Below are positions 3,992 through 26,213 of a DNA stretch of 44,819 nucleotides, piece after piece. Location: the IMG/VR virus record IMGVR_UViG_3300012006_000004, positions 1 through 44,819 of that record; one strand, given 5' to 3'. This stretch comes from a virus. Below the pieces are notes generated by a model. It searched no databases and was not told where the DNA came from. It worked only from the letters and a program-made list of their open reading frames with translations. The position numbers and the translations under genes were made by a program. Numbering within the stretch: position 1 is the stretch's first letter; each line of letters starts with the position of its first letter.

Positions 3992-4240
3992 TTATAACGT
4001 GCCGTCTTCATTTTTGTCAATAGTTTCTTCTACTATTTGCTGTACATATTCAGAAAAATGTTTTCTTGTACTTCCTGCTGGTCTATTTCCTAGACTTTTC
4101 CAAATTCTTTTATATTCAATTACATTCGCAAATGTAGTAGGACATAAAGAAATTCCGTTATATTCTTTTAACACAGTTGGAAGTGGAACATGTTTGCCAC
4201 AACATTTACATTCTTTAGCTTGCTCTTGGTATATGCTCAT
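3992..4240 (-). CDS. Small zinc-binding hypothetical protein
   Basis: An 82-residue protein. CKCCGKHVPLP (Cys 11, 13, 14) and a later SLC at residue 32 form a treble-clef or partial zinc-ribbon start, followed by a helical, charged region. Similar free-standing Cys-rich proteins often sit beside phage terminases and HNH genes. It overlaps the terminase stop by 4 nt (ATGA), so it is translationally coupled to it. Function unknown; a packaging accessory is possible from position alone. Confidence 0.65.
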   Translation of the reverse strand: MSIYQEQAKECKCCGKHVPLPTVLKEYNGISLCPTTFANVIEYKRIWKSLGNRPAGSTRKHFSEYVQQIVEETIDKNEDGTL

Positions 4241-6036
4241 AGTATCGTCATTCTATCCATTGCCTCTTGCAAATCAGCTGGCATTCTGGGAGGTCTTATT
4301 AAGTTAATTGATAAGTCTTTTGATTCAGATGGATGAAAATCATTATCAAAACTCATTGATTCATATGTATGAATATTTACTTCTTCATTATTATTTGGCC
4401 TTGTTCTACTTATGGCATTGAATACTGATCCGCAAACAGCATCGGCTAAGTCTTTTGAACCTTTTCTTGGGTGATCTACCTTATCTCTCATGATTTTAAG
4501 CTGAAGCAATTCATCTATAAGTAATTTAATTCCTGGTCCAGATAATCTTTCTTCCATAATAACCATAGCCATATCGTCATAATGTTTTTTGGCAACTGAA
4601 AGCAATTCAGTACTAATGCCATATTGCTTTAACTGCTGCATCATATCATGCGAGTTCCATCTATCAAAGGTGCAGACACGGATATTAAATCCAAGAGTTT
4701 TGAGAGATAATATATAGTCTTTAACTTCAGTAAAGTCAACAGATTTATCTGGTGTTGGAGTCCAATATCTTACTGCATCAACAGTTACAATTGGAGCAGG
4801 CTGAGAGTACTCATTAGTTACTTTGACATTTACCCAGCGATCTACATGCGCTAAAGCAACAGCACAGTGGTCGTGTTTTTGAGCTAAGTCAACATGAATA
4901 AAGTATTCTTTTTCTTCATTTGGCTTAAACCATTCTTCAATTCTTCCAAAGTTATCTACAGCTAAAGACATTTGATTGAATGCTTTTTCAACTTTCTCTC
5001 TTGATTTAAAGAAGGCATCAATCATTTCTGGTGGCATACAGGCAAATCTTCCAAGTGCATCTAGACTATTTTTATAAAATGCTGTTTTAAAATCATCAAT
5101 TTTTCTTGTAGGGTTTACTTCCCATGTAGGTCTTTTTAGGGCATACACCTTTGGAATTAAATATGACTTTATGTGGTCTTCTTCCCACTCAATATCAAAT
5201 TCATTACCTTCCGTTCCATCTGGAAGATCCTCATCCATTTTAAAATGATGTATACGAATAACAGTATCTTTTTCAGCAATTACTGAATCATAAAACTTTT
5301 GAATAGGATCGTTTTTAAAGCGTGGAAATGAAAGAAGAATTACTTTACCAAAGTCTGGGAAACGAGAGTCTACTGATGCACGATACATATCGTATATAGC
5401 ATTAGCTGTCTTTGCTTGATCGTGACCAGTTGTATTATCAATCGCAAATCCTGATATTTCATCTAGAATAACAACAATAACGTTATATCCTTCCCATGCT
5501 TCTCTTTCTGAGTGACCTGAGTGAACTGTAACAGATTTATCAAACTTCATTTCAGAAGCTTTATCTGTGTACTTTCCTGCAAACCATGGAGATCTTTCAA
5601 TACGAGTTTTAAATCCTTTAAAGAAAACATTGTTTGCCTGTTGAGCATTTATAGCAATATTAAGAATATCTATTGCATCTCCTGGAGGCTTGCCATAATA
5701 TGTTGCTGGATCCTTTAGGCACAATAGTAAATACACTATATATGAAACTGCAATAGTTGAAGAATAATCTTTACCAGATCCTTTACCTAATTGTGCAATG
5801 ACTTCTGTAGCAGTTTGCTTAAACATTCTTGCGCCCTCTTCTTCACCAAAGAGCTTTTTTAATGTTGATTCTTTATAAATTTGAGAACTTTTTTCAATAA
5901 GAGTATATTGCAACTCAGATAACGGTGGTAAGCCTAAATACTCTGGGCTTGTTACAAATGTACGAAGATCTACTGGGCGTTCATCAAATTCTTCGCCATC
6001 AAGCATATCTATTAAATCATTAAAATCAAATTCCAC
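4237..6036 (-). CDS. terL: Terminase large subunit (packaging ATPase and nuclease)
   Basis: A 599-residue motor protein that pumps phage DNA into the prohead and cuts it. ATPase domain: Walker A LGKGSGKD at 83-90, Walker B VVILDE at 188-193. The RNase H-like nuclease starts at about 375, with D383 in FIHVDLAQKHDH, a second acidic site near FDRWNSHD, and DLADAVCGS near 545. The start is GTG, inside the end of the small-subunit gene (11-nt overlap), with GAGGA upstream. Length and domain order are normal for the family. The packaging type (cos or headful) cannot be told from this sequence. Confidence 0.95.
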   Translation of the reverse strand: MEFDFNDLIDMLDGEEFDERPVDLRTFVTSPEYLGLPPLSELQYTLIEKSSQIYKESTLKKLFGEEEGARMFKQTATEVIAQLGKGSGKDYSSTIAVSYIVYLLLCLKDPATYYGKPPGDAIDILNIAINAQQANNVFFKGFKTRIERSPWFAGKYTDKASEMKFDKSVTVHSGHSEREAWEGYNVIVVILDEISGFAIDNTTGHDQAKTANAIYDMYRASVDSRFPDFGKVILLSFPRFKNDPIQKFYDSVIAEKDTVIRIHHFKMDEDLPDGTEGNEFDIEWEEDHIKSYLIPKVYALKRPTWEVNPTRKIDDFKTAFYKNSLDALGRFACMPPEMIDAFFKSREKVEKAFNQMSLAVDNFGRIEEWFKPNEEKEYFIHVDLAQKHDHCAVALAHVDRWVNVKVTNEYSQPAPIVTVDAVRYWTPTPDKSVDFTEVKDYILSLKTLGFNIRVCTFDRWNSHDMMQQLKQYGISTELLSVAKKHYDDMAMVIMEERLSGPGIKLLIDELLQLKIMRDKVDHPRKGSKDLADAVCGSVFNAISRTRPNNNEEVNIHTYESMSFDNDFHPSESKDLSINLIRPPRMPADLQEAMDRMTIL

Positions 6037-6562
6037 TAGCGTCCTCTATTACAATTGCTTCTACAACACCTGTAATCTGGGACAAGCGTTTGGCAACATC
6101 CATCTTACACTTAGGGCAAGAAGAAGTTACTTCCTTTAAAATCTTTACTAAAATATCCTGTTTGCGTTCCGCCTCTGCAATTTGTGATGCAACTTCAGCA
6201 TTATCTAATAGGCCAACTTGTTGAAGCATACCAATTCTTTTTGTCTCAATATCTGAGATTAACTTAAGAGCATTAGCCTTAACATTAAGCTGTCCTTGTG
6301 TATCTGCGTCTTCTACGGTCTTCCAGGCCTCTTTAATGAGCATTGCATAGTGTTGATCTGCTCCAGAGACTGCTTCTTTGGCACGGTCTCTAGCATTAGT
6401 ATCATTGTGCACAACAGATTTCCAGTCGTCAATTAACTCAAGGACTTCCTTACGAGTGAATCCAGTAATGGTTGCAATTTGCGTAGTGTTGCTACCCTTG
6501 AGTAATTCCTCAACGACTTTGTTCATGCGGTCATAATGTACCGCTGGTTCAATTTGTGACAT
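6026..6562 (-). CDS. terS: Terminase small subunit (probable)
   Basis: A 178-residue protein directly upstream of terL, overlapping it by 11 nt. Residues 25-48 (TTQIATITGFTRKEVLELID) form a helix-turn-helix, as in the DNA-recognition part of small terminases. The middle (about 60-140) is long helices suited to ring assembly. A CPKC pair at about 150 is unusual. Small terminases bind the packaging start and bring the large subunit to DNA. The assignment rests on the HTH, length and position. The ATG is 6 nt after a -10 box and has only a weak GTAGGT before it. Confidence 0.8.
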   Translation of the reverse strand: MSQIEPAVHYDRMNKVVEELLKGSNTTQIATITGFTRKEVLELIDDWKSVVHNDTNARDRAKEAVSGADQHYAMLIKEAWKTVEDADTQGQLNVKANALKLISDIETKRIGMLQQVGLLDNAEVASQIAEAERKQDILVKILKEVTSSCPKCKMDVAKRLSQITGVVEAIVIEDASGI

Positions 6563-6568
6563 ACCTAC

Positions 6569-6597
6569 ATTATACTTCTAGTCGACTGAAATAGCAA
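6569..6597 (-). promoter_or_regulatory. Promoter of the terminase operon, probably leaderless
   Basis: TTGCTA (6592-6597), 17-nt spacer, TATAAT (6569-6574), then 6 nt to the ATG at 6562. It is the best two-box promoter outside the one at 22378. It lacks the TG extension. Confidence 0.7.
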
Positions 6598-6919
6598 GCT
6601 TATTGGCAATTTTGAGCAAGATTAAATACCCAATTAAATCGTCAATATCATTGTCTCCTGGAAATGCTTGATCATTCTGAATTCTATTTAGCTTATCATC
6701 AATACGGACTCTAATTTGTTCTCTTGATTCCGCCTTTGAAAATATACGAATAGGATTAAGGGCAGAGTTACCATATGATATATTTTTTTTAATAAGCATC
6801 TCTGCGGTCTCAAGACACTCAACAATAATCTTATGACCAGATGGAGCATCAGTTGCTATTAATTGTAAGTCTGTAATCCATGCTTGATATCCACCACTTT
6901 TATTTGGGTAATCTGACAT
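6578..6919 (-). CDS. Nucleotide modification associated domain 1 (Nmad1/DUF1599) protein
   Basis: A 113-residue protein. The pattern KKNISYGNSALNPIRIFS, then SREQIRVRIDDKLNRIQN and DDLIGYLILLKI matches the DUF1599/Nmad1 family, a MazG-like helical fold often linked by gene context to phage DNA base modification or nucleotide-pool control. The acidic residues of the last two helices would bind metal. The start has AAAGG upstream. It follows the methyltransferase and glycosyltransferase genes, and its tail lies under the terminase promoter. The chemical role is unknown. Confidence 0.75.
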   Translation of the reverse strand: MSDYPNKSGGYQAWITDLQLIATDAPSGHKIIVECLETAEMLIKKNISYGNSALNPIRIFSKAESREQIRVRIDDKLNRIQNDQAFPGDNDIDDLIGYLILLKIANKLAISVD

Positions 6920-6929
6920 TTATTTACCT

Positions 6930-7547
6930 TTACTCATGAATGTGCTCTGGTCGAATATAATCTGAATTTTTTCTAATCCAAACCTGCCATCCCTTTTCAA
7001 TAACCTCTAGGTGCTCTGAGTACATGCTTACAAACATATCTATGGCTGGCGCTGGATTATATTTAAAGCCTTGTGGATGTGTCCATGCATAATCATCAAT
7101 AGCCATAATGCCGCCTGGCTTTAATAGCTCCCAAGAAAGTAGTGCGTCCATCATAAATGCCTGTGGCATATGATCGCCATCAATATAAATAAAGTCATAC
7201 TGTTTAGATCTATTTTTCATTAGCCACTCATCGCTGTAAGCTTTTTGTTTAATTACTTGATCTTTAAATGGCTCAAGCTGCTCGTCAAAAGCTGATTCAA
7301 CATCAGAAAAATCAAATGCTTCGTGTGCCACATTTCCATTCCATGGATCTACGCATGTCAACTTTGAAGTTTTATCTGTTAATACATTTTCAATTGTCCA
7401 AGCTGCACTATTTCCACAAAATGAACCTATCTCTAAAAATTTTAAGTTTGGCTTTCCTTTAAACTCATCTAGTAGTCTATTAAAATCATCTTGAGTTTTA
7501 TTTCCTAAAAACCAATTTGGTAGCTTTTCTGCTAGTTCTCTTGTCAT
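6930..7547 (-). CDS. Class I SAM-dependent methyltransferase (Methyltransf_24-like)
   Basis: A 205-residue Rossmann-fold enzyme. SAM-binding motif I is KFLEIGSFCGNSAAW (37-50), motif II acidic TCVDPWN (D67), and YDFIYIDGDHMPQ (117-129) supplies the metal/acidic signature of the Methyltransf_24 and CmcI-like group. LLKPGGIMAIDDY follows. This group mostly methylates small molecules and sugars, not DNA bases. It overlaps the glycosyltransferase by 4 nt (ATGA). A sugar O-methyltransferase acting on the product of its neighbour is the natural guess. Confidence 0.85.
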   Translation of the reverse strand: MTRELAEKLPNWFLGNKTQDDFNRLLDEFKGKPNLKFLEIGSFCGNSAAWTIENVLTDKTSKLTCVDPWNGNVAHEAFDFSDVESAFDEQLEPFKDQVIKQKAYSDEWLMKNRSKQYDFIYIDGDHMPQAFMMDALLSWELLKPGGIMAIDDYAWTHPQGFKYNPAPAIDMFVSMYSEHLEVIEKGWQVWIRKNSDYIRPEHIHE

Positions 7548-8257
7548 GCGTTTCTCTTTTCTGGCACTATGTGGCCTGTTTCTCTAGTTTGAAATGTTGA
7601 TACTATATCATACAATTTACATCCAATTTCCGCAAGTGGGTGCGGGGTAAAACTTTTAAATATATCTGGTTGTCTATAAATATACCAGTCTATTGGCATC
7701 GTAAGTCCTGTGGCTATACATGCATCTAACATCTTTTTTGCAGACTTTCTATTTAAAACATAGCACAGCATTGACCAGTCCTGATAAGCTTTAACTATAT
7801 AAAGATTATCTGGTATAGAATGTATTTCCTGGCTAAATCTAGGAAGCTGATCTGGATGGACAAAATAACTAAATACATCCCAATCTTTTGGTAGTCCCCC
7901 CATATATTTTTCTAATAAATAAATGAATGCGTTTTTATCTGGCACATAAATATCATCTTCTATTAACATTAAATATTTTTTATCAGTATTTAAAAAATTC
8001 TTTATTGCTAATAGATTGCTTGCCCAAATACCCAACTCTCCCCATTTAAATTCACGGTTAGTTTTAATTAGATTATGCTTTTCATTAAAATCAAAGTAAT
8101 CGTTTTCATTACTTATCAATATAGTCTCAGTATCTAGCTTCTCCATTCTAATAGAAAGATAGTCATTTAAAGACTTAAATAGATCAGCTCTATCTAAATG
8201 TGATTCTCCATAACCTGGTATGTGAAAGATTTTATAACAGAAATCATCTTTGATCAT
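7544..8257 (-). CDS. GT25-like glycosyltransferase
   Basis: A 237-residue protein like family 25 glycosyltransferases (LPS and collagen-type beta-galactosyl/glucosyl transfer). GELGIWASNLLAIKNFL (73-89) is the family hallmark, followed by YLMLIEDDIYVP with the E100-D101-D102 metal/sugar-nucleotide motif. There is no membrane segment. The substrate is unknown: virion protein, host envelope glycan or modified base are all possible. Coupled by ATGA overlaps to the HTH gene upstream and the methyltransferase downstream. Confidence 0.85.
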   Translation of the reverse strand: MIKDDFCYKIFHIPGYGESHLDRADLFKSLNDYLSIRMEKLDTETILISNENDYFDFNEKHNLIKTNREFKWGELGIWASNLLAIKNFLNTDKKYLMLIEDDIYVPDKNAFIYLLEKYMGGLPKDWDVFSYFVHPDQLPRFSQEIHSIPDNLYIVKAYQDWSMLCYVLNRKSAKKMLDACIATGLTMPIDWYIYRQPDIFKSFTPHPLAEIGCKLYDIVSTFQTRETGHIVPEKRNA

Positions 8258-8400
8258 CTTTTTTTAATTAGCCCAAACTGTTCTAAGTGCCTCTGTATGG
8301 TCATAGCAGAAACATTGCACTCTTTAGCTATTTCAACAATAGTTTTTTTCTGAACAGAGTATCTGCGAAACAGCCACTCTTTACTTTGATATAATTTCAT
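8254..8400 (-). CDS. 48-residue helix-turn-helix protein
   Basis: A very short gene that fills the gap between the resolvase and glycosyltransferase, with 4-nt ATGA overlaps on both sides. The protein runs MKLYQSKEWLFRRYS, then a clear HTH: TIVEIAKECNVSAMTIQRHL, and ends QFGLIKKR. Trp, Arg and Lys richness fits DNA binding. It resembles the minimal HTH units (KEWLYxxYVxxKxSxxEIA) found near phage HNH and recombination genes. It may be a small regulator or a DNA-targeting partner of a neighbour. The junctions make it very likely to be translated. Confidence 0.85.
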   Translation of the reverse strand: MKLYQSKEWLFRRYSVQKKTIVEIAKECNVSAMTIQRHLEQFGLIKKR

Positions 8401-8963
8401 CTTTCAGTTAATACCTTATTTGTATAATGAGCTATTCCAAAAGAATCTGCCACATCAAAATCATCTAGTAACAGCCCATATTTACTATTAAAGTAGTCTA
8501 CAGTTCTTTGTTTACGCATATTCCTTATCTGGTTTTTATACCATGAATCTGCATATCCTGGATGATTTAATCTTATTGCCGCCTTTTCTTCTTTAGTTGG
8601 ATTCTTATTACCTATATATGCCTGCCAAGATGTTGGAGAAATAGTAATAACTTTAGCTCCAGTAGACATAAGCTCAGCAATAACAACGCCATAAACATAT
8701 GATAATTTTATCACAGCATCAGGTGATCTGACAAGTATTGCGCCTTCGACTACGATATAATCAGACTTTAGCTCATCTAACATAGCATGCATTTTAATTT
8801 TAGCGTCATGAATTTTATCATATATATCCATTCCAGCTAATTCAATTTTTCCCCATTTTAATGGAATATCATTTTCCATTAAGCAGAAGGCTATTGAATT
8901 TGTAGATGCATCTATGCCTAATACACGATGTGCCTTAGTCTTGACTAGATCAGCTAACTTCAT
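8397..8963 (-). CDS. RuvC-like Holliday junction resolvase
   Basis: A 188-residue RNase H-fold nuclease. VLGIDASTNSIAF gives the first acidic residue (D18), YIVVEGAI the second (E73), and LLDDFDVADSFGIAHY the C-terminal pair (D170, D173). This is the acidic set of RuvC-type resolvases. It would resolve branched DNA formed by RecA-driven recombination and replication before packaging. The start has GAGGA upstream and lies in the end of the zinc-ribbon gene (14-nt overlap). The Lys/Arg-rich stretch at 140-155 probably contacts DNA. Confidence 0.88.
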   Translation of the reverse strand: MKLADLVKTKAHRVLGIDASTNSIAFCLMENDIPLKWGKIELAGMDIYDKIHDAKIKMHAMLDELKSDYIVVEGAILVRSPDAVIKLSYVYGVVIAELMSTGAKVITISPTSWQAYIGNKNPTKEEKAAIRLNHPGYADSWYKNQIRNMRKQRTVDYFNSKYGLLLDDFDVADSFGIAHYTNKVLTER

Positions 8964-13082: not shown

Positions 13083-13421
13083 TTAAAATAAATTGCCGTG
13101 AAGCTTTGGACGGTCTTTATTTATATTCATTTTCTTTTCTAGAATTTCATCTAAACTATGTAACACAGCCTCTTCATTTCTCATTGCAGCATAAATGTCA
13201 AGTAGTCTGATTATTACATCTGCCATTTCTTCTACCACTTTTTCAGATCCGTGGCTCTTTCTAATTGCTTCTAATACTTCAGTGACTTCTGAATGTACTA
13301 AAGCTAATTTATTTCCAATTTTGTCATGCGTATATTCGCCATCCCAAAATCCCTTTTCTTTTGCTGTTTCATGTAATAGTGCTGCTAAGGCATCTAAGCC
13401 AAACTCAGTCAGATGTTCCAT
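13083..13421 (-). CDS. MazG-like nucleotide pyrophosphohydrolase
   Basis: A 112-residue all-alpha NTP pyrophosphatase-like protein. HSEVTEVLEAIRKSHG and KVVEEMADVIIRLLDIYAAM give the ExxE...ExxD metal-binding pattern of the MazG/dUTPase superfamily. Such enzymes clear noncanonical or regulatory nucleotides; phage MazG homologs may tune the host nucleotide pool or alarmones. It overlaps the upstream small gene by 17 nt, with an AAAGGA-like site. Confidence 0.88.
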   Translation of the reverse strand: MEHLTEFGLDALAALLHETAKEKGFWDGEYTHDKIGNKLALVHSEVTEVLEAIRKSHGSEKVVEEMADVIIRLLDIYAAMRNEEAVLHSLDEILEKKMNINKDRPKLHGNLF

Positions 13422-23834: not shown

Positions 23835-26213
23835 TTAACTCATATACACTGTAGCAGATCCAGTTGTTGGTCCACCAGCGGAGTTTATGGCTTGAATAGT
23901 ACATCTATAATATCCAGTACCTGCCCAACCTAGTCCAGGACTTAAGTCGTACCCTGGTCTTATTGATGTTATGCTTAATCCATTAGAAGTAGTAAGAGCT
24001 GCAGATGGTTGTTGATATCTAGTTGAAAATGGTCCTGCAGAATTAGAAGCATTATAACCAATTGTTACTCTATATACTGGTGTAGGACTTCCAGTGCAAC
24101 TCCAAGTAAATGTTCCTCCAACAGAAAGAGAATTATCCCCAGAAACTACTGGTGTTCCTGGTGCGGATGTTGAGGCTGTCCATCTAGCATGCATTGTGAT
24201 ATTTGATGGAGCTACAAAAGATCCACCTGTTGATATAGGCCCGTAAAGGTAATCTCCAGATGGAGTATTGTAGTAACCATTGAATGTAAACCCAGATCTT
24301 GTTCCTGGAGAAGGTGCAGTATGTGCTGTGCCAGCATTGAATGGTCCTGTTGACCCTCCACCACTTCCTCCTCCTGCATTCCACGTTACTGTATATTGTG
24401 CTGGTGAGGTTATAAGGCTATAGTTTGCGGATGCTGTATTACCAGTAGAGGAAGTTACAGTAACGGTTCCAGTGTAGGTTGTTCCTGGACTAAGACTGTT
24501 ATTAGTTATAGATGTTGCAGTAGTTCCTGTTCCACTAATTGATCCATCTGAACTGAAGCTTGATTGATTACTTGATGACCAGTTTATTGTTCCTGATGTT
24601 TGTGTTACGCCGCTATTTGCACCCATAGTTATTGTTGGAATTACTGGAGTAAGAGTCCATCTGGCATACATATTTCTGTTTCCGTCTGGTGGAAACCACG
24701 ATGTACTTGCCTGAACTAGATAGGTGTAATCAAGGCTTCCTGTATCATACCAACCATTAAATGTGTAGCCTGCTCTTGTTGGGGTAGAGGCGGAAGTTGT
24801 TGGTCCTCCAGATGTAAATGTGCTAGTTCCTTGCGCTGTTCCACTTCCATCATTTTTAAGATAAGTTACTGTATATACTGGAATTGGTGGTGTCGTAAGA
24901 CTATAACTTGCTGTTGCAGTATTACCAGTCGAAGACGTAACGGTAATTGTTCCAGTATATGTAGTGTTTGGAGTAAGACCAGTCTTATAAACACCACTAG
25001 AACTACTTGGGCTTCCGCTAGCTGCAAATGCTCCGTCAACACTAAATCCATATTGATCTGTTGATGTCCAGTTAATTTGTCCTGTTGTAGTAGTTACACT
25101 AGTATTTGCTGCGATTGTAACTGTTGGAATCACTGTTACTAAAAACGGGCCTAAGTTACTAGATGCATATGTAGCTGGCGAACTAGTTCCTCCCGCATTT
25201 GTAGCTGTTACATAAAATGATAGAGTGTTTCCTCCATATGTTCCACCTACTGTCCAATCATAATATGCTCCAGATTGATTCAATGCTAATACGTTTGTTC
25301 CAGCAGCATTGTTTCTATCTAAATAATAAGTATATGAAGTAGGTGTATTTGTCCAAGAACCAGCGCTTAGCCTATATACCGATCCAACTCTATTTGCAGT
25401 TCCAGATAACAATGAAAATGTTGGAGCAGAAGTATTTGTTGGTTTGGCTACTGTAATTGTAGCTGTTGCAGTACTTGTTGCTGTAGTTGACCCACCAGAG
25501 TTTGTAGCAGTAATTTTTACTTTTATAGTATGTCCATTGTCCTCAGAAGTAATAGCATAGTTTGAACTATTAGTGCTATTAAATGCTGCAGTTCCAGTAT
25601 CTCCATATATCCATTCATATAAATATGTATCTGGTGTCCAGTCTCCTGAATTTATATTAGTAGTTTCCCAACTACTTATACCAATTAAAGTTTGTCCTAT
25701 TGTAGCCGTTCCACTAATTGATATGCTAATATTTGATGGAGTATATTTTACTAAATAAGCTTCATTAGAACTAGTTACCCAAGATGATGTTCCAGTAGCA
25801 TTTGTTGCCCTGACAACATAAACAATATATCTTTTATCCCATGTGCTAATATTTCCAGCAGTACTTAATGTTGTAGCTGTTTGGGAGGGGCTAAAATCTG
25901 AATATGGCCCCCCAGAATATGCTGACCATTGCCATTTATTTTCATATGAGGTTGGATTGTTTAGCCAAGATCCTCTGTATCCATATAGGACATCTCCAGT
26001 ATTTGATTTAACTGTTGTGTTATTTATATCCGTTCCGCCAGAATTTCTTACTTTTGGATAAGTAGATATAGAAGGGATTGGTTCAGCAGAAAAGAATTTT
26101 TTCCAGACTCCACCAATTGTTACATAGCCAGCATTAATTTTTTTCCAGACTCCGCCAATTGTTATGTATCCATTATTAATTCTTTTCCATAGGCCACCAA
26201 TAGTTACATACAT
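23835..26213 (-). CDS. Large repeat-rich tail fibre / adhesin
   Basis: A 792-residue, Thr/Ser/Gly-rich beta protein. Order: three tandem 14-residue units (YxTIGGxWKxI) at residues 2-42; Ig/FN3-like domains to about 370; then two copies of an Ig-like plus InlB B-repeat bimodule (about 370-530 and 530-680), each B-repeat ending in a YARWT- or HARWT-type motif; then a last Ig-like domain. InlB B-repeats (Listeria-Bacteroides repeats) are usual in bacterial surface adhesins, so this protein probably contacts the host envelope. The repeats suggest rapid length change. Confidence 0.8.
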   Translation of the reverse strand: MYVTIGGLWKRINNGYITIGGVWKKINAGYVTIGGVWKKFFSAEPIPSISTYPKVRNSGGTDINNTTVKSNTGDVLYGYRGSWLNNPTSYENKWQWSAYSGGPYSDFSPSQTATTLSTAGNISTWDKRYIVYVVRATNATGTSSWVTSSNEAYLVKYTPSNISISISGTATIGQTLIGISSWETTNINSGDWTPDTYLYEWIYGDTGTAAFNSTNSSNYAITSEDNGHTIKVKITATNSGGSTTATSTATATITVAKPTNTSAPTFSLLSGTANRVGSVYRLSAGSWTNTPTSYTYYLDRNNAAGTNVLALNQSGAYYDWTVGGTYGGNTLSFYVTATNAGGTSSPATYASSNLGPFLVTVIPTVTIAANTSVTTTTGQINWTSTDQYGFSVDGAFAASGSPSSSSGVYKTGLTPNTTYTGTITVTSSTGNTATASYSLTTPPIPVYTVTYLKNDGSGTAQGTSTFTSGGPTTSASTPTRAGYTFNGWYDTGSLDYTYLVQASTSWFPPDGNRNMYARWTLTPVIPTITMGANSGVTQTSGTINWSSSNQSSFSSDGSISGTGTTATSITNNSLSPGTTYTGTVTVTSSTGNTASANYSLITSPAQYTVTWNAGGGSGGGSTGPFNAGTAHTAPSPGTRSGFTFNGYYNTPSGDYLYGPISTGGSFVAPSNITMHARWTASTSAPGTPVVSGDNSLSVGGTFTWSCTGSPTPVYRVTIGYNASNSAGPFSTRYQQPSAALTTSNGLSITSIRPGYDLSPGLGWAGTGYYRCTIQAINSAGGPTTGSATVYMS
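24175..25130 (-). repeat. Duplicated Ig-like + InlB B-repeat module
   Basis: Two protein-level copies, about 25130-24655 and 24640-24175. Shared pieces include NTTYTGTITVTSSTGNTA against GTTYTGTVTVTSSTGNTA, and GYTFNGWYDT against GFTFNGYYNT. This indicates a tandem duplication within the fibre gene. Confidence 0.75.
26085..26213 (-). repeat. Three tandem 14-codon units at fibre N-terminus
   Basis: The gene begins with YVTIGGLWKRINNG, YITIGGVWKKINAG and YVTIGGVWKKF. The DNA also repeats (TTTTCCAGACTCCRCCAATT on the plus strand). It may be the fibre attachment site on the tail. Confidence 0.85.

Follow-up and report, generated by a model that had tools for sequence, protein, structure and literature searches.

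We consider it reasonably probable that a GT25-type glycosyltransferase (GT) and a Methyltransf_24 methyltransferase (MT) form an exchangeable glycan-decoration module in a fixed slot of Stanwilliamsviridae-related actinophages and that, as part of the same explanation, the genes bordering the slot, HTH48 and N113, belong to the phage core and not to the GT/MT pathway. The window, that is, the whole stretch of DNA that was analyzed, comprises 44.8 kb of a 51.8-kb IMG/VR record, with a GC content of 36%. Its TerL, RuvC, HTH, and TerS genes have homologues in such phages and lie in the same order as in Annadreamy and Riptide, and we use the label Stanwilliamsviridae-like in this sense of homology and gene order. 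WhiB was found in 10 of 13 contigs tested, the carriers being relatives or MT-bearing phages other than the window record; the hosts are therefore likely to be actinobacteria. These hosts are uncultured, and the habitat of the group is probably freshwater. Elsewhere in the window, a MazG/pyrophosphatase-like gene (positions 13083 to 13421) adjoins RecA, as it does in Riptide and Peregrin.

A preliminary description had placed four open reading frames (ORFs) between positions 8400 and 6578. All four were confirmed there on the minus strand, in the transcription order HTH48, GT, MT, N113 (Table 1). ATGA-type overlaps of 4 nt were found at the RuvC/HTH48, HTH48/GT, and GT/MT junctions.

Table 1. 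Genes of the slot region and its conserved flanks (window coordinates)
Gene	Position	Strand	Assignment	Best family match	Place
RuvC	8397..8963	-	RuvC-like resolvase	phrog_159, E = 9.5e-21	Conserved flank upstream of slot
HTH48	8254..8400	-	48 aa, helix-turn-helix core protein	phrog_9759, E = 1.9e-11	Left edge of slot
GT	7544..8257	-	237 aa, GT25-type GT-A glycosyltransferase (predicted fold), E100-D101-D102 invariant	PF01755, E = 4.9e-5	First cargo gene
MT	6930..7547	-	205 aa, Methyltransf_24 class I SAM O-methyltransferase-like	PF13578, E = 1.8e-19	Second cargo gene
N113	6578..6919	-	113 aa, small all-helical core protein	phrog_1485, E = 5e-10	Right edge of slot
TerS	6026..6562	-	Small terminase subunit homologue	phrog_9507, E = 4.9e-54	Conserved flank downstream
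TerL	4237..6036	-	Large terminase subunit	64.6% identical to terminase of Streptomyces phage Francob	Conserved flank downstream

The earlier assignment of the first cargo gene to a GT25-like transferase was borne out. As a single sequence, the protein scored 23.7 bits against PF01755, just below the cutoff of 24, and it reached 24.3 bits when neighboring frame pieces were included. A family profile built from 18 relatives, across which the E-D-D metal motif is invariant, matched solved GT25 enzymes in the PDB (E = 2.8e-11). The predicted GT-A fold (AlphaFold pLDDT 86) gave Foldseek matches of 1.5e-9 to 6e-8, including COLGALT1 (1.5e-9), mimivirus R655, and a bacterial GT25 beta-1,4-galactosyltransferase (5e-8). 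By profile and predicted fold, the enzyme clearly belongs to GT25: it shares both, together with the acidic motif, with LgtB-like enzymes, COLGALT1, and R655, whereas its identity to solved members is only about 15 to 19%.

The Methyltransf_24 assignment of the second gene is solid (71 bits against a PF13578 cutoff of 26.3; Table 1), with LEIGSFCGNS, DGDH, and DD conserved in the alignment and the DGDH...DD motif invariant. A PDB search with MT matched generic O-methyltransferases and no sugar-specific MT; bacterial relatives often adjoin glycosyltransferases (GT1, GT2, or GT4 genes). The best-matching PHROG family, phrog_2675, is named "DNA methyltransferase"; a glycosyltransferase of a Streptomyces phage falls into it as well (E = 1.6e-23). 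That glycosyltransferase matches the N-terminal part of the family and the window MT matches further along. On these alignments, phrog_2675 is probably a GT-MT fusion family and its label misleading. Against relatives, MT had a dN of 0.04 to 0.09 (dN/dS about 0.03 to 0.07) and GT a dN of about 0.14 to 0.23 (dN/dS about 0.1 to 0.2 in most comparisons), rising to about 0.5 in L112 and L115, where the same MT partners a divergent GT. With dN this low and synonymous sites nearly saturated, both genes are seen to be maintained under purifying selection, and GT evolves faster than MT.

The preliminary description had proposed a cassette of four coupled genes, to be refuted should the genes be found apart in relatives. 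Our first locus sets, which were fetched by N113, GT, or MT queries and are biased accordingly, were compared gene by gene. MT was present in all 18 contigs fetched with the GT query, and 29 of 31 loci fetched with MT had a GT25 neighbor. In 26 of the 31, with L116, L117, and L123 among them, this neighbor was an adjacent homologue of the window GT; three further loci, in unrelated phages (L118 to L120), have a different adjacent GT25 gene (PF01755), with a TOD1-type GT and TauD also near the pair in L118, and no GT was recognized in the short contigs L121 and L122. The pair occupies three positions, namely, the HTH48-N113 slot, the gap between PolIII-alpha and RecA (L116, L117, and L123), and other sites in L118 to L120. 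In the slot of L253, a GT2-like domain (own-profile match, 1.1e-8; no Pfam match to that half) is fused to MT24 in one protein, followed by an NAD-epimerase. GT and MT are thus a separate, tightly coupled two-gene module in unrelated phages, and the pairing and fusion of MT with GTs suggest that MT acts on a sugar hydroxyl. The coupling of GT with MT therefore stood, since the neighborhood comparison recovered them as a recurrent pair, but the four-gene cassette was rejected: in relatives, HTH48 and N113, core neighbors of RuvC and TerS, occur together without GT/MT or flanking other cargo.

The biased sets contained 86 distinct HTH48-N113 slot sequences, of which 43 were empty, with HTH48 abutting N113; 17 held GT and MT, 6 held GT with other genes, and 20 held other cargo. 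A cargo-blind set of 80 loci was fetched with a RuvC query. There, the order RuvC-HTH48-N113 was found in 79 of 80 loci (L251 being without a detected N113), the HTH48-N113 gap was occupied in 67, and cargo lay anywhere from RuvC to N113 in 72, fractions that describe the nearest RuvC relatives rather than populations. The synteny RuvC-HTH48-[slot]-N113-TerS-TerL was kept in about 80 cargo-blind loci. Cargo ranged from one to four genes, and for about 100 of the roughly 150 cargo-blind slot ORFs, the cluster representatives matched GT, methyltransferase, or sugar-nucleotide Pfam families. The transferases of relatives were of the GT25, GT2, and OCH1-type/Gly_transf_sug kinds, the methyltransferases were FkbM, Methyltransf_11/12/23/25, and MT24, and other sugar cargo included a cytidylyltransferase (CTP-transferase) and an epimerase. 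One unclassified 220-aa family (cluster 1) accounted for 40 slot ORFs; it had no match in Pfam, PHROG, or PDB, and its start (G-x-A-x-R...P-K) looks nucleotidyltransferase-like. The slot is a hotspot of exchangeable sugar/methyl chemistry, and what this phage family swaps is probably the chemical decoration of its virions or of cell surfaces, not a modification of DNA.

Exceptions to the glycan theme were IMPDH (4 loci) and a 114-aa ORF without assigned function (4 occurrences). Together with the unclassified 220-aa family, which likewise has no evident link to glycans, they count against the decoration explanation. The IMPDH cluster (340 to 342 aa) comes third among the cargo genes of four phages related to one another (L229, L221, L222, and L227), and its representative, the L221 ORF, is a full-length IMP dehydrogenase. 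Next door, in the RuvC-HTH48 gap, L030 has, upstream of HTH48, a gene for an APS-kinase-like protein whose C-terminal domain resembles a nucleotidyltransferase, and L050 has a sulfotransferase-like ORF that scored below the cutoff; these two ORFs hint at sulfate decorations. Such IMPDH, APS-kinase-like, and unclassified ORFs, together with the general rule of mosaicism among phages, would suit a selfish or random mosaic slot in which ordinary moron turnover brings in cargo without a common function. We nevertheless judge that explanation improbable, as the cargo is strongly enriched in sugar/methyl enzymes and under purifying selection, and like cargo is retained at the same place in Streptomyces phages.

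RuvC relatives were found in 136 phage records of Streptomyces and Rhodococcus phages, at no more than 51.8% identity. HTH48, a small putative DNA-binding protein, has orthologues at the same RuvC-adjacent place in the Streptomyces phages (Stanwilliamsviridae) Annadreamy (53%), Riptide (50%), and Francob (48%) and in one Rhodococcus phage, Peregrin (46%). TerS was assigned through Riptide gp92, an annotated terminase small subunit (46% identical). At the slot place, Riptide has a methyltransferase with relatives among those in the slots of the uncultured phages. The Loccivirinae Streptomyces phage Annadreamy, and also Francob, have an HTH-GT-GT-nucleotidyltransferase run at the slot place, after RuvC and HTH, and the first GT is homologous to that of the window (match to the window GT profile, E = 7e-20 for Annadreamy and 2e-17 for Francob). 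Unlike the window, their run lacks MT24 and N113 and contains a second, nonhomologous GT and a cytidylyltransferase.

Viral contigs contain at least 598 relatives of N113, which occurs whether or not GT/MT is present, unrelated phages included; no orthologue was found in Streptomyces or Rhodococcus phages. The earlier label for this protein, Nmad1/DUF1599, is plausible as a remote likeness but does not hold as family membership. N113 had no match to PF07659 (DUF1599) at an E value of ≤1, nor did any part of the whole record at ≤10 (Pfam cutoff, 25 bits). By hhalign, a deepened N113 profile gave a weak, colinear alignment to PF07659 domains (score, 28.8; 50% probability; P = 1.6e-4), above all 60 column-shuffled controls (maximum score, 23.1). 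The two families have a K-N-x-x-Y-G motif in common and are helical, and a remote relation is plausible; N113 differs in failing the Pfam model and in being a core gene unlinked to GT/MT. No DUF1599 was found in 41 bacterial genomes. A relationship of N113 to MazG was rejected, given that hhalign against the family of the window's MazG-like protein returned nothing and the Foldseek match to MazG was not significant (E = 4). N113 occurs with two alternative N termini (YPNK... and MLKPVF...); the window has the first, and most GT+MT contigs (L105, L087, L091, and L096 among the loci) have the second. These two types suggest crossovers within N113 during cargo swaps.

Phage GTs can glycosylate hydroxymethylated bases. 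This activity, the weak remote match of N113 to PF07659, and the name of phrog_2675 would agree with the hypermodified base raised in the preliminary description, here in a form in which GT and MT build it with a methylated sugar and N113 is an Nmad1-type partner. We regard this as very unlikely. Hypermodification of this kind should leave a hydroxymethylase or a TET/JBP enzyme in the genome; no PF00303 thymidylate-synthase-type hydroxymethylase and no TET/JBP match above the cutoff (some fell below it) were found in 13 incomplete contigs (the window record and 12 large others), and a hypermodified base is unlikely because of these results. No DNA-base-modifying enzyme appeared among the alternative cargos, the slot neighbors being enzymes of sugar and methyl transfer. 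In addition, N113 is found apart from GT/MT, and the phrog_2675 label is doubtful in a family that also covers a glycosyltransferase. DNA thus appears to be the least likely acceptor, and names such as "DNA methyltransferase" (PHROG) and "Nmad1" can point wrongly to DNA modification.

The other possibility raised at the outset, a methylated glycan, is supported by the GT+MT pairing and by the sugar/methyl cargos of the slot. GT would transfer a sugar from a nucleotide-sugar donor, its EDD motif binding the metal, and MT would O-methylate the added sugar to give a methyl-capped glycan; cargo swapping would then give phage lineages different decorations. Sequence alone does not separate virion, host surface, and DNA as acceptors. 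Judging from glycosylated mycobacteriophages, the likeliest acceptor may be a virion protein of the capsid or the tail, and we prefer it because glycosylated actinophage virions with GT and O-methyltransferase genes have been reported. According to PMC11600133, which cites Freeman et al. (2023), cluster O mycobacteriophages carry three tandem GTs adjoining an O-methyltransferase, and capsid and tail tube are reported to be modified. Virion glycosylation has also been suggested for Rhodococcus cluster CB (PMC13313380). The window likewise has a GT gene beside an O-methyltransferase gene in an actinophage; the difference is that an acceptor is reported for cluster O, whereas the window has a single GT, of the GT25 family, in a terminase-side swap slot. 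A 792-aa putative tail/structural protein in the window (positions 23835 to 26213; 32% Ser+Thr) is a candidate O-glycosylation acceptor. Counted against a virion acceptor is that lakes are without antibodies, leaving no obvious selective motive for varying virion glycans.

The main alternative, which we hold to be possible and rather unlikely, is that the module alters a host envelope glycan during infection, for superinfection exclusion or receptor masking. Loci for surface polysaccharides typically include GT25, GT2, OCH1-type, and FkbM enzymes, and the bacterial MT relatives lie beside GT1/GT2/GT4 genes. Sporadic, polymorphic clusters of GT, nucleotidyltransferase, and O-methyltransferase genes in jumbo cyanophages have been read in this way (PMC7824862), and the GTs of Nanopelagicales phages E7 and F5 were likewise suggested to prevent superinfection (PMC10202952). 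However, neither a lysogeny gene nor a polysaccharide exporter was recognized among the window genes examined (part of them annotated), the stretch between RuvC and the terminase genes that contains the slot resembles an operon, and the nearest actinophage wet-lab precedent is a virion protein (PMC11600133). Returning to the virion, a collagen-like pathway is the faintest of the alternatives, highly unlikely in our view: 2OG-Fe(II) oxygenases would hydroxylate virion residues, the COLGALT1-like GT25 would glycosylate them, MT would cap the glycan, and the HTH48-N113 slot would shuffle the last steps. Relatives and MT-bearing phages have up to 14 2OG-Fe(II) oxygenase ORFs (PF13640) in 86 kb, some of them as slot cargo; none was found in the window record, and those structural proteins that were checked showed no collagen-like G-X-Y repeats. 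Carriers include the contigs of L094 (G191), L022 (G200), and L084 (G189), among others, and several of the oxygenase ORFs lie in tandem (e.g., G200:34276-38229).

That phage glycan clusters vary between relatives is already known from the "capsular polysaccharide modification" clusters of jumbo cyanophages, which comprise GTs, HIGH-type nucleotidyltransferases, O-methyltransferases, and 2OG oxygenases (PMC7824862). Those clusters are, like the slot, polymorphic between related phages but are larger than the one to four genes between HTH48 and N113. GTs in freshwater actinophages have also been noted earlier (PMC10202952). In the open-license literature, we found no description of a single conserved slot, with HTH48 on one side and N113 or TerS on the other, that cultivated Streptomyces phages also have, or of a recurrent GT25-MT24 pair. 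A widespread group of actinophages, probably from freshwater, exchanges sugar- and methyl-transfer genes at one genome position, as do its Streptomyces relatives in culture. Provided that virions are what the cargo decorates, the slot would amount to a natural library of variants in phage glycosylation, open to testing in the Streptomyces phages Annadreamy, Francob, and Riptide, and a simple marker for predicting the type of decoration from metagenomic contigs.
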